Below are positions 45,105-64,000 of a stretch of DNA of 64,000 nucleotides, piece after piece. Made by a program: the position numbers and the translations under genes. The notes under the pieces were generated by a model. It was given only the letters and a program-made list of their open reading frames with translations, ran no database searches and was not told where the DNA came from. Origin of the DNA: Microbacterium mangrovi. Its GTDB lineage: Bacteria; Actinomycetota; Actinomycetes; Actinomycetales; Microbacteriaceae. How positions within the stretch are numbered: position 1 is the first letter of the stretch; each line of letters starts with the position of its first letter. The DNA is taken from positions 868,001 through 932,000 of the forward strand of contig NZ_JTDK01000006.1 in the NCBI RefSeq assembly GCF_000802305.1, in the 5' to 3' direction.

Positions 45105-46283
45105 CTACATCTCCGAGATCGGGAGTCCATCCGAGCGAGACGCAGTCTCGTCGCCAACGGCAACCCAATTCAGTGTGATGCGTCGCCACCGCTCGGGCTC
45201 TGAGTTCCAGCACATCGTGTGCTCCGCGAGGAAGCCCTCAACACATACGACGTCTGGACGGCTTGCCGCGACGCGACGCGACACTTCGTACGGCGTTGAG
45301 GTGTCGGCCACACCGTGAAGAATCAATGTCGGGACGCGAAGCCGTGCCGCACGTCCGAGCCAGTCCAAATTGTCGAGTGATATGGCCGTCTGCAATCCGA
45401 CCAGCCGTGAAAGCGCGCGGACTTCGAGCCACGGATGCGCCAGAACTCCAAACCACGCGGGAAGTCCCGCCCGCACGCAGTTGGCGTCGATCGTGGACCG
45501 CCAGTCCAGCACCGGTGAATCCAGGACCACGCGCTCGATCACATCGTGAAACTCAGGATCTGTCGCCAACTCGAGCGCGATCACGGCGCCCATCGACCAC
45601 CCGAAGAGCACAATGCGATGCGCACCGTGAGCGATCGCATACCTCACCGCAGCGCGGACGTCGTCCCCCTCGGCAACGCCCAGAGTGGATCGGCCGGTTC
45701 CGTCAGCGGGACCCTCGCCATCGTTGCGGTAGCTCACCACGAGGGAGACGAGTCCAGCGGTCGTGGCGACCTCGACGCCGCGGAGTGTTCCCGCTCGCGA
45801 GCTACCGAGCCCATGGATATGAACGGCCCACCCCCCGCGTCCACCCGACGGTTCGATGAGCCACGCGGGTGCTGAACCTACGGGGGTCTCGATCACGACG
45901 TCGGATACGTTCAGGCCCGCGTCGCGTGGATCCTCGAAGTAGATTCCACTCCACGACGCCATACTCCCTGCCATCAGCTCGAGAGGTGCGTTGCCTTCAA
46001 CCACACGAGTGACCGTCGAGTCACTCTCGTGGATGACGTCGCCAAGATGAACCCATCCCCCGCCTTCGAGCCAGAGGTTGTAGCGTCCGCCAGCGGCGGT
46101 CCGCGCGGTTCGGTCAAGGACAATTGCTGTCTGCTCCTCGTCCCGGAGAACGTTTAGAACGGTCAGGTCGAACACCCGGCCAGACGCTGGAGCCGTGAGC
46201 CTCCGCGCAATCATCCACCCGATGCCGGCCGCCGCGAAAGCAGCGGCACCCGCAAACAGCGCAGCAACCCGGCCGATCTTCAT
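45105..46283 (-). CDS. Membrane-anchored alpha/beta hydrolase
   Basis: A 392-residue protein. Residues 5-27 are one TM segment after a basic start, so the catalytic domain is probably outside the membrane or at its surface. The hydrolase domain (about 150-380) has the nucleophile elbow GWSMG (Ser230), an Asp in HGVADTS and a His in EHTM: a complete triad. GGAGG lies 4 nt before the ATG, which overlaps the 7-TM gene's stop. It is the last gene of the EspR-like/ImmA/7-TM operon; a role in processing or degrading a secreted signal is a speculation from that context. Confidence 0.85.
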   Translation of the reverse strand: MKIGRVAALFAGAAAFAAAGIGWMIARRLTAPASGRVFDLTVLNVLRDEEQTAIVLDRTARTAAGGRYNLWLEGGGWVHLGDVIHESDSTVTRVVEGNAPLELMAGSMASWSGIYFEDPRDAGLNVSDVVIETPVGSAPAWLIEPSGGRGGWAVHIHGLGSSRAGTLRGVEVATTAGLVSLVVSYRNDGEGPADGTGRSTLGVAEGDDVRAAVRYAIAHGAHRIVLFGWSMGAVIALELATDPEFHDVIERVVLDSPVLDWRSTIDANCVRAGLPAWFGVLAHPWLEVRALSRLVGLQTAISLDNLDWLGRAARLRVPTLILHGVADTSTPYEVSRRVAASRPDVVCVEGFLAEHTMCWNSEPERWRRITLNWVAVGDETASRSDGLPISEM

Positions 46284-47296
46284 CGCGCCTCCTTCGGTTG
46301 GCCGACACCGGGGCGGGGGCGATTCGGTGGCGTTCGAACTGGCTGCCCCGTCAGGTGAGCTTCCGCTTGGTCGACCAGCTCGCGCTCGGATGCGCTGAGT
46401 GTGAAAGAGACCCGCGGATCGAACACAGCGTCCCGAATCTCCACGATCTGCCGGTGGAGCATGGCGTCCGGGTTTTCAGAGGTGAACGCTCCGAGATCCT
46501 GCTCACCCACGCTCGGACGCACCTGCCTCGCCCGTTCCCAAGCAGGCGTCACCGCGGTGACGAGTCGACGTGTCGTCAACGCACGGCTTCGTGCGTGCAC
46601 GCGCCGAATTGCTGGCAGGCTCGCCAAGCCGAAACAGAGAAGGACGAAGGTCAGGAGGAAGAGCGGGCCGTACACCGCCCCGAGGGCGACCATTAACGGG
46701 ACATTCCCACTGACGTGCGCGAGATCCATAACGATGATCACGGCCGAGAGGACGAGCCCACACAGGCTGCCGAGCAGCAACGAGATCGCAGGCAGTCGAT
46801 CAACTCCGGTGCTCTGTCCGATCCTTCGAGCAGAGACCACGGCCATGACAGTCACGACCATTCCGTTGTAGGCGTACTCGATCATCGAATACGCTGCCGC
46901 CGCCGGCTGCGCTCCGTAGTCCAGCATGAACGTGGTGGTCGTCTCGCCCCGCTTGATCAGCGCGAAGGCGACGATCACTCCGGTCAACGAGACCGCCAAC
47001 AGGATGCCGCCAAGCGCGATGTTCACTGCCCGCGACCGGTATTCGGTCACCTTCACCACACCGCGGCCGAGGAAGAAGATTCCAAACATCAACGCGAGAT
47101 CGGCAAGCAGCGTGGCGAGGTTGGCGCCACCCAACAGCTGGTCGACCCTGTCGTACACGGCATCGATGTTGAGCGTCATCGCCACTGCGATCGTGACGGC
47201 GGAGTACGTGATGCTCCGTTCCGCGCGCCCCCTCCGCAGGATGAGGAGACTCGCGACGAGCATCCACATCACGATGGCGACGATGATCTGGATCAT
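46280..47296 (-). CDS. Seven-TM membrane protein (MAB_1171c / DUF6545-like)
   Basis: A 338-residue protein with seven clear hydrophobic segments in residues 1-225 and a basic, polar cytoplasmic tail of about 110 residues (ASERELVDQAEAHLTG near 305-320). I recognise the layout as the MAB_1171c putative transporter family, found in actinobacteria beside ImmA/IrrE proteases and HTH regulators; its function is not established. It overlaps both neighbours by 4 nt, so stoichiometric expression with protease and hydrolase is expected. Confidence 0.75.
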   Translation of the reverse strand: MIQIIVAIVMWMLVASLLILRRGRAERSITYSAVTIAVAMTLNIDAVYDRVDQLLGGANLATLLADLALMFGIFFLGRGVVKVTEYRSRAVNIALGGILLAVSLTGVIVAFALIKRGETTTTFMLDYGAQPAAAAYSMIEYAYNGMVVTVMAVVSARRIGQSTGVDRLPAISLLLGSLCGLVLSAVIIVMDLAHVSGNVPLMVALGAVYGPLFLLTFVLLCFGLASLPAIRRVHARSRALTTRRLVTAVTPAWERARQVRPSVGEQDLGAFTSENPDAMLHRQIVEIRDAVFDPRVSFTLSASERELVDQAEAHLTGQPVRTPPNRPRPGVGQPKEAR

Positions 47297-47766
47297 CCGA
47301 AGATCTCCATGAACTTCGACTCGTACGACGCCGATCGCCGGATGCCCGCCGCGAGATGATCCGCCAGGACTTCAGCAGCAACTTCGTCGTCAGACTCAAG
47401 ATCCTGGCGAGCAAGGATGCGCCGGCGCGTCATCGGGGGGATGTCGGGGAGCAAGACGTCCTGAGAAGCCACGTGTGGGTCATCACCGTGATCGAGAATC
47501 ACGTGGGCCAGCTCATGCAAGACGAACTGCTGCCGATGAAGCAGCGACTCGCTACGCGCATGAACCACGACGTCCTCGGCCTCCCCCACGAGGAGGACGG
47601 CACACACGCCGCCACTCTCGTTCAGCTCAGTGAGTTCGACGATCCGGAGGGGGCGATCCGTGTATCTCTGCACAGCGTCGACGACCTCGTCGAACGTGAA
47701 GGCGTCTCCGAGGTCAAGCTCGCTCATTGCCGTCAATACGGTCGCTTCAATGTCCACGAAGACCAC
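47293..47766 (-). CDS. ImmA/IrrE-family metallo-endopeptidase
   Basis: A 157-residue protein with the zinc motif HELAH (84-88) in FVLHELAHVILDHG. In ICEBs1 and phage-like elements ImmA cleaves the HTH repressor to derepress the element. Here the HTH regulator gene lies immediately upstream (48 bp apart), making it the natural target. The GTG start follows GGGAGG; an ATG 39 nt later (MSELDL) is the alternative. The protein is shorter than ImmA proteins fused to HTH domains. Confidence 0.85.
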   Translation of the reverse strand: MVFVDIEATVLTAMSELDLGDAFTFDEVVDAVQRYTDRPLRIVELTELNESGGVCAVLLVGEAEDVVVHARSESLLHRQQFVLHELAHVILDHGDDPHVASQDVLLPDIPPMTRRRILARQDLESDDEVAAEVLADHLAAGIRRSASYESKFMEIFG

Positions 47767-47814
47767 TTCCCTCCCGAAGCACCGGCCACCCTACTTGGGT
47801 GGAAGGCGCCGCTG

Positions 47815-48237
47815 CTACTCCTGCCTCAACTCCTCGTCGAGAAAACGACTGATGGCCTTGAGCGCATCCGGCGACACATCCCCCAGTGTGCGGGCCGCAT
47901 AAGACTTGACCTTCGCCGCCCGCATCGATCGCACAAGGTCGAGCTGTGCCCTGACCCTGGCCGGCATCGGTGCGTCGTCGTCGCCCACCAGAAACGCGGC
48001 GTCGACGTCGAAGAAGTCAGCCAGAGCCTCAAACAATCGACGGTCCTGGACGTAGCGGTGACCGTTCACCATGTACGTCCATCGCGAGCGAGACAGATTC
48101 ACTCCGCGATCCTGCACGAAGGCCGCGATCTGCGCGTGGGTGGGCTCGGCACCCGTCTCCGTGATCGCGACATCGAGGAGCAGCCGAAGACGCTTCGCCA
48201 GGTCTTCGGCGGCTGCCTTGCTCTCTTCTTCTGTCAT
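47815..48237 (-). CDS. EspR-like HTH transcriptional regulator
   Basis: A 140-residue helix-turn-helix protein. The HTH (about 30-80, GVNLSRSRWTYMVNGHRYVQDRRLFEALADFF) is like the variant found in mycobacterial EspR, and the C-terminal helices (VRSMRAAKVKSYAARTLGDVSPDALKAISRFL) resemble EspR's dimerisation part. GAGG precedes the ATG. Upstream lie four 14-bp palindromes, the likely binding sites. It leads the operon with protease, 7-TM protein and hydrolase. Confidence 0.85.
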   Translation of the reverse strand: MTEEESKAAAEDLAKRLRLLLDVAITETGAEPTHAQIAAFVQDRGVNLSRSRWTYMVNGHRYVQDRRLFEALADFFDVDAAFLVGDDDAPMPARVRAQLDLVRSMRAAKVKSYAARTLGDVSPDALKAISRFLDEELRQE

Positions 48238-48280: not shown

Positions 48281-48403
48281 TTGGGCACGCCCAACGTGGC
48301 GTTGAGCATGCCCAATCTACGCGTTGGGCATGCTCAAAACAATCCTTGCGAACTCGAAGAAGCGGTGGAAGGCTGACACCCATCGTGCATTGAGCATGCT
48401 CAA
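48281..48403. repeat. Four copies of the palindrome TTGRGCATGCYCAA
   Basis: Copies at 48281-48294 (TTGGGCACGCCCAA), 48302-48315 (TTGAGCATGCCCAA), 48324-48337 (TTGGGCATGCTCAA) and 48390-48403 (TTGAGCATGCTCAA, perfect palindrome). Start-to-start distances are 21, 22 and 66 bp, about 2, 2 and 6 helical turns, so all copies face the same side of the helix. They fill the 246-bp gap before the EspR-like gene. A cooperative operator is most likely; a partition site or iteron cluster is the alternative. Confidence 0.9.
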
Positions 48404-48483: not shown

Positions 48484-48819
48484 TTACAGCTCGCCGATGG
48501 CGATTCCGAGTTGGAAGTACATCTCGCTCACCGCGGCGTCGTTGACCGTGTACTTGATCCGCTGACCCCGAACAGCCTGCTCCAGAGGCGGATCGGCGAT
48601 CAACATGCCAGACGACGTCAGCGCCTGAAGCGCCTTCGCGACCGTCGGCACCGCAAGACTCGTGCCCGTGGCGATCTCGCCTCGGGTGGATGCGCCGTGG
48701 TTCCTGATGTATCCGATGATGCCGGCGCGCACCATGCTGCCGAGAGCCTTAATGGGGTCCTCCACGTTGTCGGCGTCGAGGGGTCTCGCATATCTGGGCA
48801 CATGCCCATTGTGTCGCAA
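48484..48819 (-). CDS. Winged-helix transcriptional regulator (ArsR-like)
   Basis: A 111-residue protein with a winged-helix pattern (about 28-100: GSMVRAGIIGYIRNHGASTRGEIATGTSLAVPTVAKALQALTSSGMLI). The start is uncertain: a TTG with GGGGAG just before it (used here) or a GTG 18 nt downstream. It lies back to back with the transfer operon (about 100 bp apart), so it probably controls that promoter. A TGGGCA-CA-TGCCCA inverted repeat overlaps its start region. Confidence 0.8.
   Translation of the reverse strand: MRHNGHVPRYARPLDADNVEDPIKALGSMVRAGIIGYIRNHGASTRGEIATGTSLAVPTVAKALQALTSSGMLIADPPLEQAVRGQRIKYTVNDAAVSEMYFQLGIAIGEL
48795..48808. promoter_or_regulatory. Inverted repeat TGGGCA-N2-TGCCCA at the winged-helix gene start
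   Basis: Two 6-bp arms like those of the 14-bp palindromes upstream of the EspR-like gene but with a 2-bp spacer (CA). It may be a weak site for the same regulator or an autoregulatory site of the winged-helix protein. Confidence 0.4.
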
Positions 48820-48920: not shown

Positions 48921-49004
48921 ATGATTCGCAACGACGCGGCAAACAGCCGCGATCGCGCCAGGTGCGAGGCTGCGCCGTCCGCCTCGCAAAGGTGGTTCCG
49001 ATGA
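48921..49004 (+). CDS. 27-residue leader ORF of the transfer operon
   Basis: An ATG with AGGAGG 5 nt upstream opens a 27-codon frame, rich in Arg, Ala and Ser with one Cys, whose TGA overlaps the ATG of the VirB8-like gene (ATGA). The VirB8-like gene has no good ribosome site of its own, so this small ORF likely exists to couple its translation. There are no TM segment or known motif. It is too short to name. Confidence 0.7.
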   Translation: MIRNDAANSRDRARCEAAPSASQRWFR

Positions 49005-49708
49005 GCACTGGGATGTCACGACGTGGGCTGATCTGGGCGACCGTCGGAGCCGTCGTGCTTCTGATCGCCATCGTCGCGATCATCGCCGCGACGCTCAACG
49101 GAGCACCCCAAGCCAGGCCGTCCTCGCCGGCACCGACTTCTTCAGCCTCCCCCTCGTCGGCGACGCAACCGCAGGCTGCCGTCGTCGATGAGGGGGTGAC
49201 CCAGTATGGCTGGGTCCCCGAGCCGATCACCACGGATCGGGAGACGTACGTCCGGGCGGCGCTGGCCGCGGCTTCCACGTTCGATCCGTCGAAGTCCACG
49301 CGCGACAAGTTCTTGGCCTACCTAGCGACCTGGTTCACGCCCGACGCGCGCTGGAAGACCCAGGCAGATCGAGACCGCGCGACGCAGCTCTACCTCGGCG
49401 CCCTGGACGAATCAGTCGTGCTGCCCGATGACCAGTGGACCCAGCTTCGCTCGGATCAGAACACCGTGACCGCGAAGGTGACGGGGCCGATCAAATACAT
49501 GGCAGTGCCGAACGATCCAGGCGGGATGTCGATCGCAACCGCGGACGTCACAGTGACGTACCGGCAGGGGAACGTCACCAACGATGACCAGGTGCGGGTG
49601 AGCGTGCAGGTGCTGTGCGGTTCTGGTTCTGTCCCGGCTCCGGGTTCGGCGCAGCGGGCAGGTGACTGCAAGGTCGTTCGCTTCTTCGATTCGGCGTTGG
49701 AGGGGTGA
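49001..49708 (+). CDS. Conjugal transfer protein, VirB8/TcpC-like
   Basis: A 235-residue bitopic membrane protein: short cytoplasmic N-terminus, one TM (about 10-32), a Pro/Ser/Ala-rich linker to residue 60, then an extracellular domain of about 170 residues that suits the NTF2-like fold of VirB8/TcpC proteins. It would form part of the inner-membrane platform of the transfer apparatus. Sequence similarity is weak, and the role rests on topology and operon position. Start chosen at the overlap with the leader ORF. Confidence 0.7.
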   Translation: MSTGMSRRGLIWATVGAVVLLIAIVAIIAATLNGAPQARPSSPAPTSSASPSSATQPQAAVVDEGVTQYGWVPEPITTDRETYVRAALAAASTFDPSKSTRDKFLAYLATWFTPDARWKTQADRDRATQLYLGALDESVVLPDDQWTQLRSDQNTVTAKVTGPIKYMAVPNDPGGMSIATADVTVTYRQGNVTNDDQVRVSVQVLCGSGSVPAPGSAQRAGDCKVVRFFDSALEG

Positions 49709-49714
49709 TCGATC

Positions 49715-50356
49715 ATGGGCGCCCCTGCCGTTGCGACGCTGACAATCGTCAGGTCGAAAACGGCCCGCCGAGTCATGGCCGTCGCGGCGACCATGTTCCT
49801 CGTCACCGTGCTCAGTGTTGCGGTGCCACTACTGACGGTGGTGTTCATCGCCAGCGGGCAATCCGGCACCGCCACCTCGGCGGACGTGCCGAAAGCGCCG
49901 GCGGTGGATCCCGCGGCTCACGTTGCGAAGGGCGGATGGACGTACCCACTGGTCGGGTCCTATTGGAAGGGACGCGGGTTCGGCCCTGACCCGAATATCT
50001 CGCGTGTCTGCTCCTACTGCTCGACGTGGCACAAGGGTTACGACATGTCGCAGGGATGCGGCGCGACCGTGCACGCCGCCGCGGCCGGCCTCGTGACACA
50101 CGCGGGCAGCTACTTCGGATACGGGAACGCGGTCGTGATCGAGAACGGCGGGGGCGTCGCGACGATCTACGGCCACATGGCCTGGGGATCTCTCCGGGTC
50201 AGCACCGGGGAGCGGGTCAGACCCGGCACCCCGCTCGGGGCGGAGGGAATTACTGGCAATTCCACTGGATGCCACCTGCACTTCGAAGTCCGCATCCACG
50301 GCGTCGCCGTGGACCCGGCACCCTTCATGGCCGCACGCGGCCTGCCACTCAAGTGA
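49715..50356 (+). CDS. M23-family peptidase (membrane-anchored cell-wall hydrolase)
   Basis: A 213-residue protein with an N-terminal TM (about 20-48) and a LytM/M23 zinc peptidase domain: first ligands in HKGYDMS, later YGHM and the HLHFEV motif, so the metal site is complete. It should open peptidoglycan locally for the transfer channel, like VirB1/Orf14-type hydrolases of other systems. GGAGGGG precedes the ATG; it follows the VirB8-like gene by 6 nt. Confidence 0.9.
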   Translation: MGAPAVATLTIVRSKTARRVMAVAATMFLVTVLSVAVPLLTVVFIASGQSGTATSADVPKAPAVDPAAHVAKGGWTYPLVGSYWKGRGFGPDPNISRVCSYCSTWHKGYDMSQGCGATVHAAAAGLVTHAGSYFGYGNAVVIENGGGVATIYGHMAWGSLRVSTGERVRPGTPLGAEGITGNSTGCHLHFEVRIHGVAVDPAPFMAARGLPLK

Positions 50357-50380
50357 GATCGCAATCAGGGAGGAAGAGCG

Positions 50381-50674
50381 ATGAATCACACAATCTGGGC
50401 GGACGTCAAAGTCCCGCCGATCAACCCCAACTTCGGCGCCCCATGGATGTCGGGTCTGCAGCTGCTCGTGTCGTATCTCCTGGCTACCGCGATCATCGTG
50501 GTCCTGCTCATGCTCATCGTCGCCATCAGCTCCCTCGCGGGCCAGACGATCGGCCCCGAGCGCGTGCGCACCTGGGCAGGCGAGAACGTCCTGCGGATCT
50601 TCATCGCCGCGGCCCTTCTCGGCTCTGTGTCCGGCCTGTTTCAGTGGTTCGTCGGGTTCAATTTCGGGTTCTGA
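50381..50674 (+). CDS. Small two-TM membrane protein of the transfer operon
   Basis: A 97-residue protein with two hydrophobic segments (about 26-53 and 70-95) separated by a charged loop. Size and position between the M23 peptidase and the VirB6-like gene recall VirB2/VirB3- or TrbC-like subunits, but no motif proves it. GGAGGAAGAGCG precedes the ATG. Confidence 0.75.
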   Translation: MNHTIWADVKVPPINPNFGAPWMSGLQLLVSYLLATAIIVVLLMLIVAISSLAGQTIGPERVRTWAGENVLRIFIAAALLGSVSGLFQWFVGFNFGF

Positions 50675-50675
50675 C

Positions 50676-52241
50676 ATGCGCACCCCAGCCCGCTTCGCGA
50701 TTGGAGCGGCGGTCATCACGGCCGCCCTCCTGACCCTCGCGGCCCCCGCGTCGGCGGCTCCCCCGGGATCTGCAGCGACGACCACGCGCATCGCACAGTC
50801 CGGGATGCGTCCCATGGATACGGTGACCGGTCAGCCGTGGTCTGCCCCGGCCTATCCGGTGAAGTGCGATCGCGAGCGCAACCTGATCTCCTGCACGCCG
50901 ACCGATCCGCACGACGTGCGCGAGACCAACTGCTACCTGAACGTCTTCGTCAGTGGCACCGCGACGACGATCTGCTCGACCTACGACGGTCACGCAGCCG
51001 CGATCAAGGCCGCCGGCGGCAGTCCTGTCACGGTCGACTTCGGATGCCACATCGGCGATCTCGTCTGCGTGACGTTCGAGAACTGGGGACGGAGCGCCGC
51101 GCTGCTCGCGACCGCGCTGATGTTCTCGATCCTGGATGCCACGCGCTTCCAGGTGGGTGGAAGCCTGTGGAACGCGGCCGCCGCCGAGTGGTCGTTCTGG
51201 GCGTGGGCGACGCTGATCGTGCTGCTCGGGTCGATGATCTGGGCCATTACGGCCGCGGTCGTGTCCCGCGAACGAGACCAGCTCGTCGGCGCGTTGGTCC
51301 GCTCATTCATCGCAATCCCAGCAGTCCCGCTCACGTTCTGGTTGATCGGCCACCTGGTGCAGTCGATCGACGACCTCATGTCGGACATCATCGGCCGCCG
51401 CACCGGAATCTTCGGGCTCTTCTCCACGATGCAGTCCGTGATGTGGGCCGGCGGGCATGCGGGCTACGTGTTCGGATTCATCCTCTACGGCATCATCCTC
51501 ATCGGGATGGTCCTGCTGCTCGCAGTATTCCTGTTCCGCAATGTGGCCCTCGCCGCGCTGATCATGGTCGGGCCGATCGCCTGGATGGTGTTCCCATCCC
51601 GCTCCGTCGGCCCGCAGTGGGTGGTTCGATACATCTCGGCAGTCGTCGTACTGCTCTTGACGGGGCCGTTGACGCTGTCGTTCTTCTCCCTCGTCGTCCG
51701 AGGCCTGGCGACCGTGAAGACGATCTGGGATCCGGCCTCGTGGCCGTACCTGGTCGGACTCGCGCTGATTGCGTTCGCCCCGTTCGCCGTGTTCGGCTTG
51801 TTCAGCTTCCTGGGCGCCGTCGCGGCAGATTCCCTCGGGTCTCGCCTCGGCGGGCACGCCGCAGCCATGGGAACCCGAACTGCACGCACCGCGGCATCCA
51901 TCCCGACCCGGCTCGGCTCCCTGCCTGCAGGAGTACCCGCGGCACGGCGAGCGCCGACATCGCGAGCCGCCACGGGGGGACGCGGCCCTACTGGTCCGGG
52001 CGGGAGCGCCGGAAGCTCTGGCAAGCATGGGCCGTCCGGCAACGCCGCCAGTGGCAGTGGACGAACGAACGATTCCGCGTCCAAGAAGCCGACCGCCCAG
52101 GCATCCGCGCAGAAGCCAGCACCGCATTCGCCTACGCAGAGCTCCGCCGCCACCTCGCGGCGGTCTGCGCCCGCCCCGGCCGCCCCACGACCGCAGCCGC
52201 CGTTGCGGACGGTGCCGAAGCCTGAAGGAGGCTCGCGATGA
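50676..52241 (+). CDS. VirB6/TrbL-like polytopic channel protein
   Basis: A 521-residue protein: signal peptide (1-29, cut likely after ASA), an external domain with several Cys (near 65-130), five to six TM segments (about 140-400) and a long Gly/Ser/Pro/Ala-rich tail. It is the most likely VirB6 analogue, the multi-spanning part of the DNA channel. It starts 1 nt after the previous stop and overlaps the next gene by 4 nt. Its function is inferred from architecture. Confidence 0.75.
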   Translation: MRTPARFAIGAAVITAALLTLAAPASAAPPGSAATTTRIAQSGMRPMDTVTGQPWSAPAYPVKCDRERNLISCTPTDPHDVRETNCYLNVFVSGTATTICSTYDGHAAAIKAAGGSPVTVDFGCHIGDLVCVTFENWGRSAALLATALMFSILDATRFQVGGSLWNAAAAEWSFWAWATLIVLLGSMIWAITAAVVSRERDQLVGALVRSFIAIPAVPLTFWLIGHLVQSIDDLMSDIIGRRTGIFGLFSTMQSVMWAGGHAGYVFGFILYGIILIGMVLLLAVFLFRNVALAALIMVGPIAWMVFPSRSVGPQWVVRYISAVVVLLLTGPLTLSFFSLVVRGLATVKTIWDPASWPYLVGLALIAFAPFAVFGLFSFLGAVAADSLGSRLGGHAAAMGTRTARTAASIPTRLGSLPAGVPAARRAPTSRAATGGRGPTGPGGSAGSSGKHGPSGNAASGSGRTNDSASKKPTAQASAQKPAPHSPTQSSAATSRRSAPAPAAPRPQPPLRTVPKPEGGSR

Positions 52242-53731
52242 GCACCAACGACGAGAGCATGCGCCCGGTCCGACTCCCCCGCCGATCCCGGCAAGGCGTC
52301 GTCATGGGCCTGGACGGCTGGCAGGTTCTGTGTCTGATCATCGCCGGGTTCGTGATGCTGACCGCGGTCCTGCGACTCGGCCCGCTCGGGTTCCTCGTGG
52401 CAGCACCGATCTATCTGCCGTTCGGGATCACCGCGCTGATCACCGTGCAGGGGTTCTCGGCTCCGCGGATGCTGGCCCTGTGGGTCTCGAAGCAGATCCG
52501 CCACGCGGTCGGCGCGACCACGCAGCAGTATCGGCCTGAGCACGTCCGGCTCGAGGGCACGATCAACCTGCCCGGCACCCGAGCCTCGCTTCGGATCTGG
52601 GAAGTCGACGGCATGGCCGCCGCCTACAGCCCGCACGACCGCACAGTGTCGATCACGGCGGAGCTCGAGGTGCAGGGGTTCTTGATGAAGGACACCCCGG
52701 AGCGGTTCGACCTGGCCGAGCAGTGGGCGAAGGTACTCGCGTCGTTCACCCAGCGCACCGGCATAAAGCGCGTCACCCTTCAGGAGCGCACCACCCCGAC
52801 CACGATCCGTGCCGCCCGCGAGCACTACCGCGCCACCGCCACACGCCTCCACGTCGACCAGGACTCCCCCGCTGCGGTCAACTATCAGGAGGTGTTGGAT
52901 GCAGCGGAACGGTTCGCGGTCGCGCACCGGAATTACCTGACCCTCACCCTTGACCTGGTCACCTTCGCACCGCAGCTGAAGGCTCTGGGCGGTGGTAAGG
53001 GGGCCATCCAGACGCTCGCGGCGATCGAAGCCGGGAACGTGTCCGAAGCTCTCGCCGCAGTGAAGGTGACCGTCCGTCGCTGGCTCACGCCGCGGGACAT
53101 CGCTGCGCTCGCACGGACTGCGTTCGACCCGGAGTACCTGTCCACCGTTCAGGACCGTGACGGCGACACGGCGGGTGTCGATCTCTCGGGGATCGGGCCG
53201 ATGTTCCTCGACGAACCGAAGCATCGCAACGGGATCGTCGTCACCGACTCCGGCGTGCACACCACCATGTGGATCCACGAGTGGCCGCGCTCGGATGCCG
53301 CGGTCGGGTTCATCTCTCCCATCGTGTTCGCACGCCACCCCGTGACCGGAGAAGCCGTCACCCACATCCTCTCGATCGTGCTCGCCCCGGTCCCGGTCGC
53401 GAAGGCGCTAAAGCGGATCCGGGATGAGAAGCGGGTCTGGCGCGGCAACGAGAGGCTGCGCGCCAAGCGCGGCGCCGACGGGTCCGCCGCCGACGAGGCC
53501 GACTGGAACGCCCTCGAAAAGCAGGAAGAAGAGATCGTCGCCGGGCACGGCGAGTTCCGGTACGGCGCCTACCTCACCGTCACCGCACCCGACGAGGAAG
53601 CCCTCGACCAGGCGGTCGCCGGCGTGCGCAACGCGCTCTCCCGCGCCGGGATGGAAGCCCAGATCCTGTACTGCCAGCAGGCCGAAGCGCTCATGGTGAA
53701 CGCACTCCCGCTCGGGATGGGGATGAAGTGA
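52238..53731 (+). CDS. SCO6880-family transfer protein
   Basis: A 497-residue protein with two N-terminal TM segments (about 25-68) and a large cytoplasmic part. I recognise the actinobacterial SCO6880-like family, always placed just before the VirB4-like ATPase and possibly combining a PrgI/VirB3-type membrane anchor with the N-terminal part of VirB4. No Walker A is present. It has ATGA overlaps with both neighbours. Confidence 0.8.
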   Translation: MSTNDESMRPVRLPRRSRQGVVMGLDGWQVLCLIIAGFVMLTAVLRLGPLGFLVAAPIYLPFGITALITVQGFSAPRMLALWVSKQIRHAVGATTQQYRPEHVRLEGTINLPGTRASLRIWEVDGMAAAYSPHDRTVSITAELEVQGFLMKDTPERFDLAEQWAKVLASFTQRTGIKRVTLQERTTPTTIRAAREHYRATATRLHVDQDSPAAVNYQEVLDAAERFAVAHRNYLTLTLDLVTFAPQLKALGGGKGAIQTLAAIEAGNVSEALAAVKVTVRRWLTPRDIAALARTAFDPEYLSTVQDRDGDTAGVDLSGIGPMFLDEPKHRNGIVVTDSGVHTTMWIHEWPRSDAAVGFISPIVFARHPVTGEAVTHILSIVLAPVPVAKALKRIRDEKRVWRGNERLRAKRGADGSAADEADWNALEKQEEEIVAGHGEFRYGAYLTVTAPDEEALDQAVAGVRNALSRAGMEAQILYCQQAEALMVNALPLGMGMK

Positions 53732-55335
53732 TGACCCGGCAGACCTTCACCATCACCCCGGCGCAGCAGTCCTCGGCCGACCGCCGCGCGACCCGCAAGC
53801 AGGTCGCCGCCGCCACCAAGGCGGAACGCCCCGCAAAGGGCGTGAAGCGCGAGCGTCGGCTGCCCGACCCCGCCGTTCCGGGCCCGTTCGGCCCGGGACT
53901 CGCCGACCGCTCCTACTGGAATCTGGCACAGGTGACCGTGCCGCCGCACCAGGCGACCTCGCAGCACCTCGCCGGGATCTACCCGTTCGTCGCCGATGCC
54001 GGCCTCGGTCATCGCGGCCCTGTCATCGGCGTCGACCTGAACGCGGACGCGCTTTGGCATTTCTCCCCCTGGGAGGCATATGCCGACACCACTGAGCGCG
54101 GGGCCTTCTCCACCAACATCCTCGTCCTTGGCGCGTACCGGTCCGGGAAGAGCGCCGTGATCAAGATGCTCACCAGCCGGTCGCTGCCGTTCGGGCACCA
54201 GGTCGTTTTGCCATCGGATTCGAAGGGTGAGTGGGTGAAGGTGGCCGAAGCGCTCGGCGGGTCGATCATCCGCCTCGGCGCCGGGAGCGCTGAACGCCTC
54301 AACCCCCTCGACCGGGGTCCCCGCCGCACCGGCACCACCGACGACCAGCACGAGCAGATGGTCGCGCAACGCCGCATCACCACCCTGACCTCTCTGATCG
54401 AGCAGACCCTCGCAGGCACCCGCCTGACCGCCGTGGAGCACGCGGCCGTGCACCTCGCCCTCGCCCGCGCAATCGGCACGACCGATGACCGGCCGACGCT
54501 GCGGGAGGTGCACCGGCAGCTCGAGGTCATCGCGTCAGGCGACACCGACGGAGACCCGGCGTTGGTGCCGGCTTCTGCGCAGCCCCGGTTCGTGCTGCGC
54601 CGGTTCGTGGACGGGGATTTGTCCGGGCTGTTCGAGGACGAGTCCACGGCCGCCTTCGACGAGGATGCCCCGATGGTCGTCGTCGACACCAGCGAACTGT
54701 TCGCCCGCGGTGACCTCGTCGCCCAGCTCACCCAGGTGTGCTCGACCGCGTGGATCCAGGCGGTCGTGTCCGACCGGGCGGCGCACCGCACCCGGTACGT
54801 GGTCCGCGAGGAGGGCTGGCGTGACATGACGTCGCTTGCCGCCCTGCAGATGTATCAGCAGTGGCTGAAACTGTCCCGGCACTACGGGATCAGCAACATC
54901 GTCATCCTGCACAAGATGGGCGACCTCGACACCGTCGGTGCCAACGGATCCCAGGAACGATCCCTCGCCTACTCGATCGCAGGCGACATCGAGAACAAGT
55001 TCATCTTCCACGTCAACCACCAAGAACGAGCCCCACTAGTCGACCGGCTCAACATCCCGCCCATGCACGCCGACATGGCCCGCCAACTCGGCCGCGGCCA
55101 GTTCCTCGCATACGTGGGCCAGTACTCCTACCTCGTCGATGCGTTCGCGACATCCACCGAGTGGGAGTACGACCTGTTCGCGACCGACGACGCGGTCCTC
55201 CCACTCGAGGCGGATGTGCCCGCGGTCATCGACCTGGCCGACAGGGTCGAGACCGCGTGGCCCGACCCCAACGACATCGCTGAGACGGATGTGAGCGTCG
55301 ATGGATGGCTCACCCAGGAGAGGGGATCAGCATGA
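53731..55335 (+). CDS. VirB4-like conjugation ATPase
   Basis: A 534-residue ATPase of the VirB4/TraC-HerA group. Walker A is GAYRSGKS (134-141). The later VVVDTSE reads like a Walker B with Thr in place of the usual Glu, and the RNLVRE/MTSLAALQMYQQW region matches the sensor part. It should power assembly or transport of the channel. The N-terminal half of a normal VirB4 (about 800 aa) is missing and may be supplied by the SCO6880-like neighbour. The ATG at the overlap is preferred over a GTG one codon earlier. Confidence 0.85.
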   Translation: MTRQTFTITPAQQSSADRRATRKQVAAATKAERPAKGVKRERRLPDPAVPGPFGPGLADRSYWNLAQVTVPPHQATSQHLAGIYPFVADAGLGHRGPVIGVDLNADALWHFSPWEAYADTTERGAFSTNILVLGAYRSGKSAVIKMLTSRSLPFGHQVVLPSDSKGEWVKVAEALGGSIIRLGAGSAERLNPLDRGPRRTGTTDDQHEQMVAQRRITTLTSLIEQTLAGTRLTAVEHAAVHLALARAIGTTDDRPTLREVHRQLEVIASGDTDGDPALVPASAQPRFVLRRFVDGDLSGLFEDESTAAFDEDAPMVVVDTSELFARGDLVAQLTQVCSTAWIQAVVSDRAAHRTRYVVREEGWRDMTSLAALQMYQQWLKLSRHYGISNIVILHKMGDLDTVGANGSQERSLAYSIAGDIENKFIFHVNHQERAPLVDRLNIPPMHADMARQLGRGQFLAYVGQYSYLVDAFATSTEWEYDLFATDDAVLPLEADVPAVIDLADRVETAWPDPNDIAETDVSVDGWLTQERGSA

Positions 55336-56672
55336 GCACCAGCACCAACCCAGGGCTGCGGGTCTTCGTCCACGGCGACACCGCGACGGTCATCGACGGT
55401 GACGGCGGCACCAGCACCGTCACGCCCGCAGGCGATCAGGATGTCCGCCAAGCTGTCGTCACGCACGCAGCGCGCCTTGCCCAGCAGTCCGGCGAGACCA
55501 TCGAGCTCACCACGTCGGGCGATCGAGGGGCACACCACCTGCTCGTCGAACCAGACGGCCACATCCACCCCATCGAACAGCCCGCGGTGGATTTGCAACA
55601 CGATGACGACCGAAACTCCGGTCGCGCGACGACGCCGCCCGCCGACTCTCGTCGTCCTGCCCTTACTCCGGAGGAACTCGAGCCGGCCGGAGAGAAGTCT
55701 GCAGAGGGTGACGGACAACTCGCGCCGCGGCTGGCCGCCGACGTCCCGAATGAGACGTCTACGGACCGGACATCGTTCATCAGCACAGGAACTCCCGCAG
55801 CGCTGGTCCCGTCGAGTGGGTTTCGCGGCTTCCTGCGCAACCTCGGCCTCGTTCGGACGCCGTCACCGGCGGATGTTGCCCGTCTTGAGCGGATCCGTCT
55901 GATCTCGGCCCAGTGGGCCGGGCCGCGGATGATCGCCGTCGTCAACGGGAAAGGCGGCGTTGGGAAGACCCCGACCACGGCCATGCTGGCAGCGGTCTAC
56001 GCGCGCTACGGCGGCGGGTCAGTGCTCGCGTTCGACAACAACGACACCCGCGGGACCCTCGGGTGGCGCACCGAGCAAGGCACCCACGAAGCGACCATCA
56101 CCGACCTGCTCGCTGCCGCACCTCAGCTGACGGCGGCGCCGACGAGCGCGATGGCCGCGTTCATCCACCACCAGACCGATGACCGGTACGACGTACTCCG
56201 GTCCAACCCGCGTGTGCTGTCGGCCGAGCAGCGCCTGACCATGCCGGAGTTCGACACCCTCGTCGGGACCGTCACCCGCGGCTATCGGCTGGTCGTGTTC
56301 GACTCCGGTAACGACGAGTCCGCCGACCGATGGCTGCGGATGGTCGACTGGGCAGGGCAGCTCGTCGTGCCCACCCTCGCTTCCCCTGAGTCCGCTGAGT
56401 CCGCCGCCCTTTTGCTTGAGGCGCTCGCCGCCCGCGACGAACGCTCCGCCATGCTCGCTCGCAATGCGGTCGTCGTCATCACCCTCGCCGAACCCACCGG
56501 CAATGCTGACGTGGCGCGGCTCGTCGCAACGTTCCGGGATCTCGCGAGGGCTGTCACGGTGATCCCGTTCGACCCCGCACTCAAGGCAGGAGCGCTCAGG
56601 TTTGGCACGCTGCGTCCGCGCACCCAACAGGCGTGGGTTGAGACCGCCGCGCACGCGGTGGAGAAGTTCTGA
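55332..56672 (+). CDS. ParA/MinD-like P-loop ATPase
   Basis: A 446-residue protein. Residues 1-195 are low-complexity and acidic; residues 200-446 are a ParA/MinD (deviant Walker) ATPase with KGGVGKT (207-213) and the FDNND and VVFDSGND segments that stand for switch regions. The KGGVGKT is followed by PTT rather than TTT. No ParB gene is adjacent, so it may position the transfer machinery (as TadZ or VirC1 do) instead of partitioning DNA. It overlaps the VirB4-like gene by 4 nt. Confidence 0.85.
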   Translation: MSTSTNPGLRVFVHGDTATVIDGDGGTSTVTPAGDQDVRQAVVTHAARLAQQSGETIELTTSGDRGAHHLLVEPDGHIHPIEQPAVDLQHDDDRNSGRATTPPADSRRPALTPEELEPAGEKSAEGDGQLAPRLAADVPNETSTDRTSFISTGTPAALVPSSGFRGFLRNLGLVRTPSPADVARLERIRLISAQWAGPRMIAVVNGKGGVGKTPTTAMLAAVYARYGGGSVLAFDNNDTRGTLGWRTEQGTHEATITDLLAAAPQLTAAPTSAMAAFIHHQTDDRYDVLRSNPRVLSAEQRLTMPEFDTLVGTVTRGYRLVVFDSGNDESADRWLRMVDWAGQLVVPTLASPESAESAALLLEALAARDERSAMLARNAVVVITLAEPTGNADVARLVATFRDLARAVTVIPFDPALKAGALRFGTLRPRTQQAWVETAAHAVEKF

Positions 56673-56683
56673 GGAGAAGTCTC

Positions 56684-57355
56684 ATGGACACCCTTCTTGC
56701 CCAAGTCGCCGGCACAGTCCTCATGGTCGCTTCCGCGGCGGGGACGACGGCGACCTTGTACGGCCGCACGCGCCGCGGACCGGGCAGGGTCGCGGTCGCG
56801 CTCATCTGGCTCGCCCTCGGAACCACAGGCATCACCACCCTCGGCACCGGAATCGCGCCGCACGGGTCCTGGGCGATCGTCGCGGGTGCCGTCGTGACCG
56901 GCGGTCTGCTGGCGTGCGCGATCGTGCTCGGCGTCCTGCGCATGCAAGACCTAAAGGCGGCACGTCGCAGGGATGCCCTGCTCGGCGTCCCGCCCGTCGC
57001 ACCCGTGCCGGCGGCTCGTCTGATCGTGACCCTCTCCGGCCTCGCCGCCCTGCTCATCTGCACCGGCCTATTCGTTCCCGGAGCTCTGGTGTTTGCGACC
57101 GCGGCCGGCATGCCGCCCGCCCAGCTCACACCCGGGTTGATGGTCGACATCCTCATCGCCACGCCGCTCGTCTGGGTCGCTATCGGGCTCACCGCATGGG
57201 ACCGGTACGTCCAGCGCGCTCGCGACATGGAAGCCCTGCGGCAAGGAATCGAGACCCGGGTCGCGGACGCTGGAACCGCCGCCTACCGAGACGGCTTCGC
57301 GGCCGGGCGCGAAGAGGGATATCACCACGCCGCCTTCGGAACATCCTGGGAGTGA
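56684..57355 (+). CDS. Polytopic membrane protein of the transfer operon
   Basis: A 223-residue protein with about five hydrophobic segments and a C-terminal, cytoplasmic coil of about 45 residues rich in Ala, Glu and Arg. GAGGAGAAG precedes the ATG. I do not recognise a family; position between the ParA-like ATPase and the coupling protein suggests a membrane partner of one of them. Confidence 0.75.
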   Translation: MDTLLAQVAGTVLMVASAAGTTATLYGRTRRGPGRVAVALIWLALGTTGITTLGTGIAPHGSWAIVAGAVVTGGLLACAIVLGVLRMQDLKAARRRDALLGVPPVAPVPAARLIVTLSGLAALLICTGLFVPGALVFATAAGMPPAQLTPGLMVDILIATPLVWVAIGLTAWDRYVQRARDMEALRQGIETRVADAGTAAYRDGFAAGREEGYHHAAFGTSWE

Positions 57356-57361
57356 CCGGCC

Positions 57362-59182
57362 ATGATCGGCGGCGGATTCTGGATGAGGGCACTCGCCGTG
57401 CTGCTCGCAGCTGCAGGCGTCATTGCCCTTCTGACGGCGTTCACCGCTGAGCTCCTCACGTCCTGGGCCTGCGGCGCCCGCCCAGTGAGCTCTGGCCCCT
57501 ACTCCGGGCTCATCCTCTTCATCACGGGGAATCCCGCGGTCTACAGTGCCCCGGCTGGATGCTCGATTCCCACGGTGCCGATCCGGATCGTCGACCTCAT
57601 CCTCTCCTTTGCCCTCATCGCCGTGGCGATAGCCAGCTACCTCGCGTACCTGCGGTACCGCGAGTCGGATGCCGCGTTCCTCGCCGGCATCCGATCCCGG
57701 CCGGGGTTCGCCACCCGCACCGAGATTCGACAGCACCTATCCGCGGCCGCGGTGCTGAGACGCGCGAAGCAGCTGCGGCCCGGCCAGCACGGCGTGAAAC
57801 CCGCCGACGTCGGCTGGCGCGTCGGCCGCGCCCACGGCACCGACGTGTTCGTGTCCATCGAAGACTCCGTCGCCCTCGAGGGACCACCACGTGCCGGAAA
57901 GGGGTACCGGGTGCTGATCTCGGCGATCCTCGACTGGGCGGGGCCCCTCATCACGACCTCGACGACGAACGACAACCTCACCGCCACCATGCGGATGCGT
58001 GAGAAGTGCGGTGAGGTGCGCGTGTTCGACCCGCAAGGACTCTCCGGCGTCCGTAGTGCCCTCCGGATCTCTCCGATCATCGGGTGCGAAGACGCTCTCG
58101 TCGCCGTGCAACGCGGGCAGGCTATCGTCACCGGCACCGCGTTGGGCACCTCCAGCACAAACCAGGAATGGGCCGACGTCGCCGGCACCGTCCTTTCCCG
58201 CCTCCTGCACGCCGCCGCCTTGTCCGGCCGCAGCGTTGCCGACCTGTACGAATGGGGATCCACTCCCGCCCTCGCTCATACCGCGGTCGACATCCTTCGG
58301 TCGGAAGACCGCGCCGCACCCGGCTGGGCGGATGGGCTCGAGGCGGTTCTCGCCGGAGACGAGAAACTCCTCTCATCCACCTGGTTCGGCGTGCAGTCCG
58401 CCGTTGCGCCGCTCGCGATCCCGCAGATCCGGACAGCGCTCATGCCCGCGCGTGGCTCCGGGTTCGACCCTCATGAGTTCCTGCAGGCCGAGAACACTCT
58501 GTACCTGATCGGGTCCGGCGCCGGAGCCGGTGCGATGGGCGGGTACCTGTCCGCGATCCTCGACGACGTCGTCGAAGTCGCACGCCGCCGGGCCCTCGCC
58601 TCCGAAGGCGCCAGGCTCCCACTCCCCCTCGGGCTCATCCTGGACGAGATCGCCAACATGTTCCGGTGGGCTGCACTCCCACGGGTCATGGCGGAGGGCG
58701 GCGGCCGCGGCATCTGCACCTTCGTCGTCCTGCAAGCCCTCTCCCAAGCCGAGACCGCCTGGTCCCGCGCGGAGGCCGACACCATCTGGTCCGCAGCCAC
58801 CGCGAAAGTCCTCCTCGGCGGGGCATCCCACGTACAGCACTTGCGCGACATCGAAGCGCTCCTCGGCACGCGGGAACAGCACCGCACCGAACGATCCTGG
58901 AGCACCCGGCAAGCTGGCACCTCCATGTCGGAGCGCCACGACAGGTTGCCGCTGATGACCGTGGACGAGATCCGCCGGCTCCCCGCCGCAGCCGGACTCC
59001 TCGCCTACCGCAACCGCCGCGGCGTCCTCCTCGACCTCACCGGATGGGACGAACGACGGGACGCACGCCACATCAAGGCTGGCAAAGCCTCAGCCGAGAC
59101 CGAGCAGCGCGGTGTCTTCGAATCCGACTATGCCGCCCGCTCCGCGATGCCGCGCCCGATCGGCGAGGAGGACCCGTCATGA
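57362..59182 (+). CDS. VirD4/TraG-like coupling protein ATPase
   Basis: A 606-residue coupling protein. Two N-terminal TM segments (about 8-35 and 73-97), then a cytoplasmic ATPase with Walker A GPPRAGKG (174-181) and Walker B LILDE (about 423). This is the receptor that brings the relaxase-DNA complex to the channel. It starts 6 nt after the membrane-protein gene and overlaps the HNH gene by 4 nt. Confidence 0.9.
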   Translation: MIGGGFWMRALAVLLAAAGVIALLTAFTAELLTSWACGARPVSSGPYSGLILFITGNPAVYSAPAGCSIPTVPIRIVDLILSFALIAVAIASYLAYLRYRESDAAFLAGIRSRPGFATRTEIRQHLSAAAVLRRAKQLRPGQHGVKPADVGWRVGRAHGTDVFVSIEDSVALEGPPRAGKGYRVLISAILDWAGPLITTSTTNDNLTATMRMREKCGEVRVFDPQGLSGVRSALRISPIIGCEDALVAVQRGQAIVTGTALGTSSTNQEWADVAGTVLSRLLHAAALSGRSVADLYEWGSTPALAHTAVDILRSEDRAAPGWADGLEAVLAGDEKLLSSTWFGVQSAVAPLAIPQIRTALMPARGSGFDPHEFLQAENTLYLIGSGAGAGAMGGYLSAILDDVVEVARRRALASEGARLPLPLGLILDEIANMFRWAALPRVMAEGGGRGICTFVVLQALSQAETAWSRAEADTIWSAATAKVLLGGASHVQHLRDIEALLGTREQHRTERSWSTRQAGTSMSERHDRLPLMTVDEIRRLPAAAGLLAYRNRRGVLLDLTGWDERRDARHIKAGKASAETEQRGVFESDYAARSAMPRPIGEEDPS

Positions 59183-62396: not shown

Positions 62397-64000
62397 CTAC
62401 CCAATTCCGCCGATGAACGACCCGCGTCTGGTCATTGCAGCCGCATTCCGTGCCAATGCCTCATTGTCATTTGACGACTCCCGTGCGGCCCGCCGCAGCT
62501 CAGCTTTGGCCATTTGTGTGGAGTCGTCGATAGTGGCCTCGATGCTTCCGCGGAGTAGGCACTTTGCGATCTCCGCTCGGGCCTCACGTTCTGACCGCGC
62601 CACGACAATGACTTCGTTCTCGTCGCGTCCGCGCGTCATGCCCACGTAGAGCCCGGCTGCATCGACTCCGGGTCCGACTGCCGCGAAGTTGGTTGTTTCC
62701 CCCTGGATGCCGTGGACGGTGGACGCGTAGGCGAGATGGACGTGCTCGCAGACGTAGTCGCGCGTCACAGTTCGCACGTCCCCGCTGTCCCTGGTGGAGG
62801 CCAGGAGAACCGATGTCGCATTGATCCGGGCGACGGTCCAGGTCGCGCGATTCTCCACCCCGGAGGCGCGGTCGTTGCGCCTGGTTTGCACGATGTCGCC
62901 GACGAGGATCCGCTGGTCCCCTAGACCTAGCGCGACACGATCCTGCCGAAGCTGACCGAGCTCCAGACGTTTGTGCTGGATCGCTTCGCTGACCGCGTCC
63001 GCCTCCGCGTTTGTCGCTGTCACGAGTGCGACCCGGCGACCCGCTCCGGCGTGCTCGAAGTAGGCGTCGACCATCGCCTCCATTGCGGCATCCTCGCTGT
63101 CCACACGCCGGACGTGCCCCGTGCGTGCGAGTTCGGTCGCGACCGCGGCGGCCTCTTCCACGCCGGCGGGTTGCCGCATGCGGAGGGTGAGGGCGGCATA
63201 CTCCGGATCGTGGAACCGGTGTACGTCCGACAGTTCGACGACGGCTCCGGAGCGGCGTGCCATGCACGCCATCGCGCCGGAGTGCCCGACAGGCCTTGCC
63301 TGCAGGTCGTCCCCGACCATTGCGAGTCCTGCGCCCGTGTCGGCTGCGACCTGAGCGAGCGCGTTCGCGGTGTTCAGGTCCACCATTCCGCTTTCGTCGA
63401 CGACGATCCGGTCGCCGGGTGCGAGCGGGTACCGGGTCGGGCCGTTGTAGGTGATCCCTGTGGCCTGGTCGATGTCGCCCGGGTGGAGTCGTGTCCAGAC
63501 CTCGTTGCCGGCGGCATCGGTGCCGTATCGCCAGCCGTGATCGACCAGGAGAGCATGCAGGCTGGATGCTTCGGCCCCGATCTCTCGTTGCGCGACGGTC
63601 GCGGCTTTCTTCGTGGGCGCGACCACGACCATGCGTCGCTGCTGCCGGGCCAGAGCTGCATGCGCGACGCGCAGCATCGTCGTCTTCCCGCTGCCGGCCG
63701 GGCCAACGACGGTGACCAGACGATGCGTGCCGCCGATCACCGCCGCGGCATCCGCCTGGCCCTGATCCAACTTGACGTTCTCGAGGACCTCCGCCGACAG
63801 TCGCTGGATCGCGTCGGGAGGGATGTCCACGCCGGGCCGGTTCAGCTCGTCGAACCGGGTCGCGAGGTCGAGTTTCAACGCCGCCGTGCGCGCGGACATG
63901 AGGTGCTTGATGTGGGCCGGCACATCCTTCTCGTCGTGCAGGACATCGACCGTGTCCAGGAGCGCGCGGGCGGCGACATCGTTGATGACCTCCTGCAGCA
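62397..64000 (-). CDS. MobF/TraA-type relaxase, C-terminal helicase part (5' end beyond window)
   Basis: The frame is open from the right edge of the window, so the N-terminus lies outside. What is visible is the RecD-like helicase region: Walker A GPAGSGKT, motif VVVAPTKKAA, DEAD-like VVDESGMVD, GDDLQARPVG and YASTVHGIQGET. This is the C-terminal half of TrwC/TraA-family relaxases, which nick the transfer origin and unwind DNA. The relaxase domain (HUH) is not in view. It is convergent with the potassium channel gene. Confidence 0.88.
   Translation of the reverse strand, partial: LQEVINDVAARALLDTVDVLHDEKDVPAHIKHLMSARTAALKLDLATRFDELNRPGVDIPPDAIQRLSAEVLENVKLDQGQADAAAVIGGTHRLVTVVGPAGSGKTTMLRVAHAALARQQRRMVVVAPTKKAATVAQREIGAEASSLHALLVDHGWRYGTDAAGNEVWTRLHPGDIDQATGITYNGPTRYPLAPGDRIVVDESGMVDLNTANALAQVAADTGAGLAMVGDDLQARPVGHSGAMACMARRSGAVVELSDVHRFHDPEYAALTLRMRQPAGVEEAAAVATELARTGHVRRVDSEDAAMEAMVDAYFEHAGAGRRVALVTATNAEADAVSEAIQHKRLELGQLRQDRVALGLGDQRILVGDIVQTRRNDRASGVENRATWTVARINATSVLLASTRDSGDVRTVTRDYVCEHVHLAYASTVHGIQGETTNFAAVGPGVDAAGLYVGMTRGRDENEVIVVARSEREARAEIAKCLLRGSIEATIDDSTQMAKAELRRAARESSNDNEALARNAAAMTRRGSFIGGIG

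Follow-up and report, generated by a model that had tools for sequence, protein, structure and literature searches.

A four-gene repressor, protease, seven-helix membrane protein and hydrolase module as a candidate decision switch of actinobacterial conjugative elements

A 64,000-nucleotide stretch of the Microbacterium mangrovi genome (hereafter the window; contig C52:868001-932000 of a 4.4-Mb genome) carries four linked minus-strand genes that an earlier note, made from the sequence alone, had proposed to be an undescribed signalling or immunity system. They encode a helix-turn-helix (HTH) protein, a protease, a protein with seven transmembrane helices (7-TM) and an alpha/beta hydrolase, abbreviated here as HT, PR, TM and HY, and lie within what is taken to be an integrative and conjugative element (ICE). 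All four genes are found where the note had placed them:

47815..48237, minus strand: HT, EspR-like helix-turn-helix protein and proposed repressor, 140 amino acids (profile and structure matches)
47293..47766, minus strand: PR, minimal M78/ImmA-like zinc protease, 157 amino acids, with HELAH and conserved Glu residues (motif, alignment)
46280..47296, minus strand: TM, 7-TM protein of the MAB_1171c/DUF6545 kind, 338 amino acids (profiles, AlphaFold2 model)
45105..46283, minus strand: HY, membrane-anchored alpha/beta hydrolase, Ser230-Asp327-His355, 392 amino acids (profile, alignment, model)

The overlaps described among the last three genes are present, at 4 nt each for PR/TM and TM/HY, and a gap of 48 nt separates the HT stop from the PR start. 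The comparison of HT with EspR also holds, as its top sequence matches among solved structures are EspR chains (E 1.4e-4, residues 8-135), and the HT profile matches 79 of 81 sequences (the window and the 80 related loci described below). The similarity to EspR of Mycobacterium tuberculosis thus extends over nearly the full length of HT. EspR is not known to have a linked protease.

The profile evidence for placing PR among the ImmA/IrrE proteases is weak (Pfam M78, E 0.0036; 17.5 bits, with the cut-off at 22), and the motif evidence is better. The HELAH motif is present, and H84, E85, H88, E128 and E132 are invariant in 34 aligned PR sequences, 11 of which match Pfam M78 at E 0.01. A HEXXH protease encoded beside an HTH gene is a trait of the ImmR/ImmA type, and HT adjoins PR here. 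PADLOC returns weak capH and capP matches for the four window proteins and nothing else; among the 34 PR relatives it reports capP in 10 (best E 8.7e-9) and a few other families in 1-3. PR is 157 residues long, compared with 242 positions in the capP profile.

TM conforms to the 7-TM description given earlier. Its AlphaFold2 model (predicted local distance difference test score, pLDDT, 84) contains seven long helices, taken as membrane helices, and a helical tail. It scores 87.3 bits against the NCBIfam family MAB_1171c (NF042915), under the curated cut-off of 100, a level exceeded in 8 of 398 genomes of the bacterial family, and 24 of 24 aligned TM relatives match MAB_1171c at E 0.001. Pfam finds a weak DUF6545 match in the tail (E 0.012) and no transporter family. 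From a modest bias in charge, loops 1-2, 3-4 and 5-6 are assigned to the cytosolic side together with the tail, and the N-terminus is predicted outside. Among the conserved segments are TTxFMxDxGxQPAAAxYS, which follows helix 4, and HRxxVEIRDA, which belongs to the tail; of the 10 columns that are invariant or nearly so in 24 diverse relatives, the tail carries 4. The model aligns with many G-protein-coupled receptors (GPCRs) at VIA-align Z scores of 12-14 over residues 1-240 (best Z 14.1, 226 residues, root-mean-square deviation 4.2). Z scores of that size are common among helical bundles and Foldseek gives poor E-values (best 0.036); the GPCR-like match may reflect only a common helical arrangement, and no fold class is claimed.

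HY, likewise described earlier as a membrane-anchored alpha/beta hydrolase, matches Pfam Hydrolase_4 at 38.6 bits (cut-off 27). Its model has an N-terminal helix (residues 2-30) followed by an alpha/beta hydrolase fold with an extra beta part behind a helix; the nearest fold matches are esterase Pf2001 (E 1.5e-13) and acylaminoacyl peptidases, and the triad S230, D327 and H355 is invariant across 24 aligned sequences. HY relatives are encoded in 318 of the 398 genomes of the family, mostly with one match per genome and, among the matches listed, mostly at 35-44% identity. A second copy in the genome of M. mangrovi itself (L214, G000:C2) is 39% identical and lies near AFG1-like ATPase and ammonium transporter genes.

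Conservation of the set was followed at two depths. For the close clade, named genomes were scanned with an alignment of TM, giving 93 relatives, the best 80 of which were kept. HT, PR, TM and HY occur in that order at 76 of these 80 loci; two of the remainder lack HY on short contigs, and two have no detectable HT gene. The PR stop falls within NTGA, giving the 4-nt overlap with TM, at all 80 loci, and the same is true of the TM stop at 77 of the 78 loci having HY. Clustering at 90% TM identity leaves 43 clusters, the window included, with the four genes complete in 42. Linkage is plain in the DNA of the close clade.

The wider survey, of 62 loci in all, covered the window, three plasmids and 58 places taken from scans of the family (48 of the 75 matched places outside the window's own genome) and of the phylum (10 of 28), weaker matches and second copies being omitted. 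All four genes are present in 31 loci, HT, PR and TM in 24, and fewer in 7. Gene order varies, with HT placed before PR or after TM or HY. The earlier note had offered independence of the membrane genes from the HTH/protease pair as grounds for rejecting its proposal, and here the outcome is divided. TM is accompanied by both HT and PR in 55 of the 62 loci; the seven exceptions have a short TM frame of 211-248 amino acids (L108, L109, L110, L119), HY alone nearby (L079) or no HT (L083, L118). HY, with its relatives in most genomes of the family, also occurs independently of the pair, and it is accessory because it is missing from 28 of the 62 loci. At one of the loci without HT (L118:8481-11052), a single protease gene is followed by two tandem 7-TM genes. 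A PR-TM-HT group without the hydrolase (L067, L070, L078, L084, L090-L092, L094) has palindromes of its own, of type TTRGACATGTCYAA; searches near these loci with transfer profiles gave no match except one M23 in L090. An HT-PR-TM trio also occupies a conserved place at L095:6209-11334 and its sister loci L098, L099, L101-L103 and L105, followed in several by genes for a response regulator, a histidine kinase and a PepSY protein.

With weak matches counted, a threshold of E 0.001 detects the TM family in 59 of the 398 genomes of the bacterial family and in 19 of 198 genomes of the phylum. Relatives also reside on eleven plasmids of Arthrobacter, Paenarthrobacter and Citricoccus, 9 of them typed as conjugative, and the order PR-TM-HY-HT recurs on all three plasmids inspected. 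Across 3,350 bp, modules from records labelled Leifsonia, Microbacterium, Leucobacter, Granulicoccus, Propionicicella, Sediminivirga and Agromyces are 99.2-100% identical, a near-identity that demonstrates, at the level of sequence, recent spread of the module. The divergence of TM and that of HY are the best matched of all pairs by distance correlation (r 0.91, compared with 0.46-0.73 for the others, the HT and PR starts having been set by fixed lengths), which is suggestive of a partnership and not proof of one. No open reading frame in the wider survey matched two of the four profiles at E < 1e-10, that is, no gene fusion offers such proof.

Regulatory evidence comes from the region separating the module from a divergent operon in the relatives. 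Of the 78 close-clade loci that have HT, 64 have an ArdC-like gene and 11 a Prim-Pol gene as the closest divergent gene profiled (75 together), and the operon continues with DUF2637 plus HTH, a ParB-like gene scoring just under the cut-off, an M23 peptidase and DUF6112. Between the two operons stand 14-bp palindromes resembling TTGAGCATGCTCAA, in four copies at 62 of the 78 loci and three at 13 (up to 2 mismatches); fewer than three are seen in L142, in L150, whose contig begins at HT, and in L197. Of 223 gaps between sites, with up to 3 mismatches allowed, 145 measure 22-23 nt and 77 measure 43-47 nt, and outside the arrays 8 sites occur in 1,455,072 bp. Two promoters are predicted in overlap with the array, that of the repressor and a weaker one facing the other way. 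In representatives, the former has a -35 element TTGNNT (36/36) and a -10 element TANNNT (35/36) at 17-nt spacing, with site 3 as the spacer, while site 2 includes TTGCGC, the divergent -35; these boxes were read off the sequences before counting, and the divergent -35 is itself part of the operator. Some other subclades have different palindromes at about the corresponding position, again centred on CATG, and for this reason the local HT is suggested to be the palindrome binder. The operator part of the switch is, as far as sequence goes, well supported.

The control region of the window retains much of this arrangement:

48390..48403, unstranded: operator site 1, TTGAGCATGCTCAA, conserved in relatives
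48346..48359, unstranded: place of the relatives' site 2, where 8/14 bases match (counted by eye in the sequence comparison)
48324..48337, unstranded: operator at the relatives' site 3 place, in the spacer of the predicted repressor promoter (comparison with relatives)
48302..48315, unstranded: operator at the relatives' site 4 place (comparison with relatives)
48281..48294, unstranded: extra operator, 21 nt further downstream than the relatives' site 4 (site search)
48314..48342, minus strand: predicted promoter of the four-gene operon, TTGTTT, 17-nt spacer, TAGATT (same geometry in relatives)

Site 2 appears to have decayed together with the lost divergent promoter. No further exact operator site exists in the 4.4-Mb genome, and the single site within the element, outside the array, that has up to 2 mismatches to the consensus is isolated. 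A regulon beyond the array was considered and rejected, as 8 one-mismatch matches in the genome outside the array compare with 23 for a reversed control pattern.

Around the module, the window carries regulators and transfer genes:

44297-45013, minus strand: GntR regulator past HY (profile search)
48484..48819, minus strand: ArsR-like winged-helix regulator, divergent to the transfer genes and lying between them and the operon (all profile matches below cut-off)
48962..59182, plus strand: transfer operon (profiles), with genes at 48962 (unknown), 49715 (M23 peptidase), 52238 (VirB4-like; weak match, 17.7 bits against a cut-off of 21), 55305 (ParA-like) and 57362 (TraG/VirD4 coupling protein)
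62397..63998, minus strand: AAA_30 helicase part of a probable relaxase (Pfam match to the helicase part), in a frame extending past the window end (contig 930397-933153)

The ArsR-like, ParA-like and TraG genes are common to the window's element and plasmid-type loci, and VirB4-like genes are found in both types. The element thus appears to be a mosaic, combining a control module of the ICE type with a transfer operon of the plasmid type, in which the ArsR-like protein may be a local regulator of transfer; a similar regulator also stands beside the module in L063, L064, L089 and L104.

The limits of the element were drawn from repeats at a tRNA gene. A tyrosine integrase (L065 8870-10093) adjoins a tRNA-Arg gene, and an 84-nt direct repeat of the tRNA-Arg(CCG) end, 83/84 identical, lies at C52:808025-808108 and 942312-942395. 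The intervening 134 kb (C52:808025-942395; about -59976 to 74395 in window coordinates), with the whole window inside, is taken as the element. Searches for an attachment-site repeat inside the window by 17-mers and 12-mers found none because the left end lies outside it. In 10-kb blocks, G+C is 0.63-0.70 inside the stretch, 0.70-0.71 to its right and 0.67-0.73 to its left. In a congener (L225), about 2 kb separates this tRNA gene from its neighbour on either side; in M. mangrovi the left neighbour is 218 kb away, so more than this single insertion or rearrangement separates the two genomes. Zeta-toxin-like and protein-kinase-like genes lie between the relaxase and the integrase (L065:4346-5215 and L065:3048-4115). 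Phage origin was rejected: none of 50,697 phage records matched TM, and a scan of viral contigs confirmed no relative.

The interpretation favoured here, with moderate confidence, is that the four genes constitute a decision switch of the ImmR/ImmA type belonging to a family of actinobacterial ICEs and plasmids, with TM and HY as its sensory arm. HT would bind the CATG-centred palindromes of the array as an oligomer that follows one face of the DNA, as the 22-nt spacing suggests, and would repress both its own promoter and the one that, in most relatives, lies back to back with it and drives the ArdC - Prim-Pol - ParB - conjugation operon. PR, a minimal ImmA-like protease apparently too small to contain the single-stranded DNA (ssDNA)-sensing parts of PprI or CapP, would remove HT when activated. 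Its activity could be set by the coupled TM, which would read a ligand outside the cell and relay the outside state through its conserved cytosolic tail. HY, presumably recruited from the enzyme family common in the genomes of these bacteria, would make, trim or destroy this ligand at the cell surface. In the element of the window, the switch retains its own operators, with a promoter region no longer common to it and the transfer genes. The chain from signal through protease and cleavage to induction, as put forward in the earlier note, is partly supported: it fits, and the relatives add to the evidence with an operator array that separates the repressor operon from the replication and transfer operon, but no operator lies at the window's own transfer operon.

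Known systems provide precedent for the lower half of this mechanism, HT and PR; the upper half, TM and HY, is inference. ImmA cleaves ImmR in ICEBs1 (PMC6540685), and TnSmu1 is controlled by an ImmR/ImmA pair (PMC10233336). The module resembles both in having an HTH repressor and an adjacent HEXXH protease that would control ICE replication and transfer genes. It differs in its EspR-like HT, in operators forming a phased four-site array, and in its input, which in ICEBs1 is RapI-PhrI and here would be the coupled TM and the surface hydrolase. CapH-CapP of the cyclic oligonucleotide-based antiphage signalling system (CBASS) and DdrO-PprI/IrrE also combine an M78 protease with an HTH repressor and yield weak profile matches; unlike them, the present module has a smaller protease, membrane partners and a partner operon for conjugation instead of CBASS or DNA repair. 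No CBASS nucleotidyltransferase or effector was named among the part of the neighbours profiled in Pfam. TM belongs to the same 7-TM family as the MAB_1171c/DUF6545 proteins, although it falls below NCBI's curated cut-off; a literature search found one paper on these proteins, with no mechanism for them and no described role in a regulator/protease operon. For HY, the comparison proposed is with PrgY of pCF10, which is not known to be an alpha/beta hydrolase, and is a functional analogy alone between element-encoded surface proteins that would damp a self-signal. PrgY is a membrane protein encoded by its element, with an outer domain proposed to lower the self-made signal (PMC6540685), and HY may similarly silence the self-derived signal in element carriers. 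The cheese-bacteria islands BreLI and RUSTI are actinobacterial ICEs that gene lists point to as possible members of this family. BreLI, which excises, has genes for a primase, ParB, an excisionase and TrbL (PMC6579920); term searches of the BreLI and RUSTI main texts found no mention of ImmA, hydrolase, repressor or helix-turn-helix.

Several observations weigh against the proposed switch. The model rests on sequence, from which the biochemical steps of all four proteins are deduced. All 80 close-clade loci were retrieved with a close-clade TM, and many are near-identical, as the collapse into 43 clusters indicates. In the wider survey, 24 of the 28 loci without HY keep the other three genes, and the trio also occurs outside conjugative elements, for example at the conserved place in one genus where a two-component system follows. 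At the level of single proteins, the window's PR scores under Pfam's M78 cut-off, NCBI labels the TM family 'putative transporter', and co-inheritance alone can yield a distance correlation between linked genes. The TTGAGC array belongs to the close clade (17 of the 62 wider loci have three or more sites and the other 45 do not), and the divergent -10 is poor, with TA at 17 or 18 nt from the -35 in 33/36 and TANNNT in none. In the window's element, site 2 and the divergent promoter are gone, there is no operator site before the transfer operon at 48962, and profile search found no ArdC, Prim-Pol or ParB homologue in C52:722001-972000. With no operator at the transfer operon, direct control of transfer by HT in this element is conjectural, and the functional case rests on the relatives.

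The main rival concerns the input of the switch, as proteases of this kind can be activated by ssDNA. The HTH/protease pair would then be an ordinary DNA-damage switch like PprI-DdrO or CapP-CapH, and TM and HY would be passengers of the repressed state, such as surface-exclusion or cell-surface modification factors. The weak capP and capH matches accord with this explanation, as do the activation of PprI by ssDNA, and of CapP as cited in the same source (PMC10904395), and the presence of HY relatives in most genomes of the family. It is nevertheless judged unlikely, since TM overlaps the PR gene at every one of the 80 close-clade loci and keeps HT and PR alongside in 55 of the 62 wider ones, even where HY is absent, and since PR is shorter than the capP profile. 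More doubtful still is a role for TM as a transporter or exporter whose substrate is processed by HY, with HT and PR responding to the internal substrate level. The NCBIfam name of the family favours it, and MAB_1171c is listed as an integral membrane transporter protein in M. abscessus, where its knockout lowered biofilm mass (PMC8707978); however, the TM model aligns best with 7-TM receptors, if perhaps just through a common helical arrangement, and Pfam gave the weak DUF6545 match and no transporter family.

The earlier suggestion of an immunity system fares worst. HTH and M78-type (COG2856) pairs have been listed among toxin-antitoxin systems (PMC2701414), so that an immunity, abortive-infection or toxin-antitoxin system of the element could be imagined, but PADLOC recognises only capH and capP among the four window proteins, both weakly and both being regulators, the operon is without a toxin gene, and the partner operon serves replication and conjugation. 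This alternative is considered very improbable.

Under the favoured reading, a switch of the ImmR/ImmA type, the four-gene unit is conserved in self-transferring elements of soil and food actinobacteria, where it probably couples a cell-surface signal to the transfer decision. New here are the coupling of an M78 protease/HTH pair to a receptor-like membrane protein, the phased array of operators that separates two divergent operons, and the ICE family that these features unite; a literature search of open-licence papers found no study of this gene set, in agreement with the earlier note. A more specific and tentative version envisages receptor-gated conjugation, in which a 7-TM receptor of GPCR-like arrangement and a ligand-editing surface esterase or peptidase turn the ImmA-type protease on or off and so decide when a large ICE family, actively spreading among actinobacteria, replicates and transfers. 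If true, this would constitute mate- or quorum-sensing in which regulated proteolysis takes the place of a kinase or a Rap protein, and the hydrolase would keep carriers from responding to the signal they make themselves. If the favoured reading is right, the MAB_1171c/DUF6545 proteins would gain a role as sensory partners of M78 proteases. The finding would also name the control point and the operator sequence of a widespread conjugative family that moves between actinobacterial genera, and the question of what triggers transfer in these elements would become directly testable.

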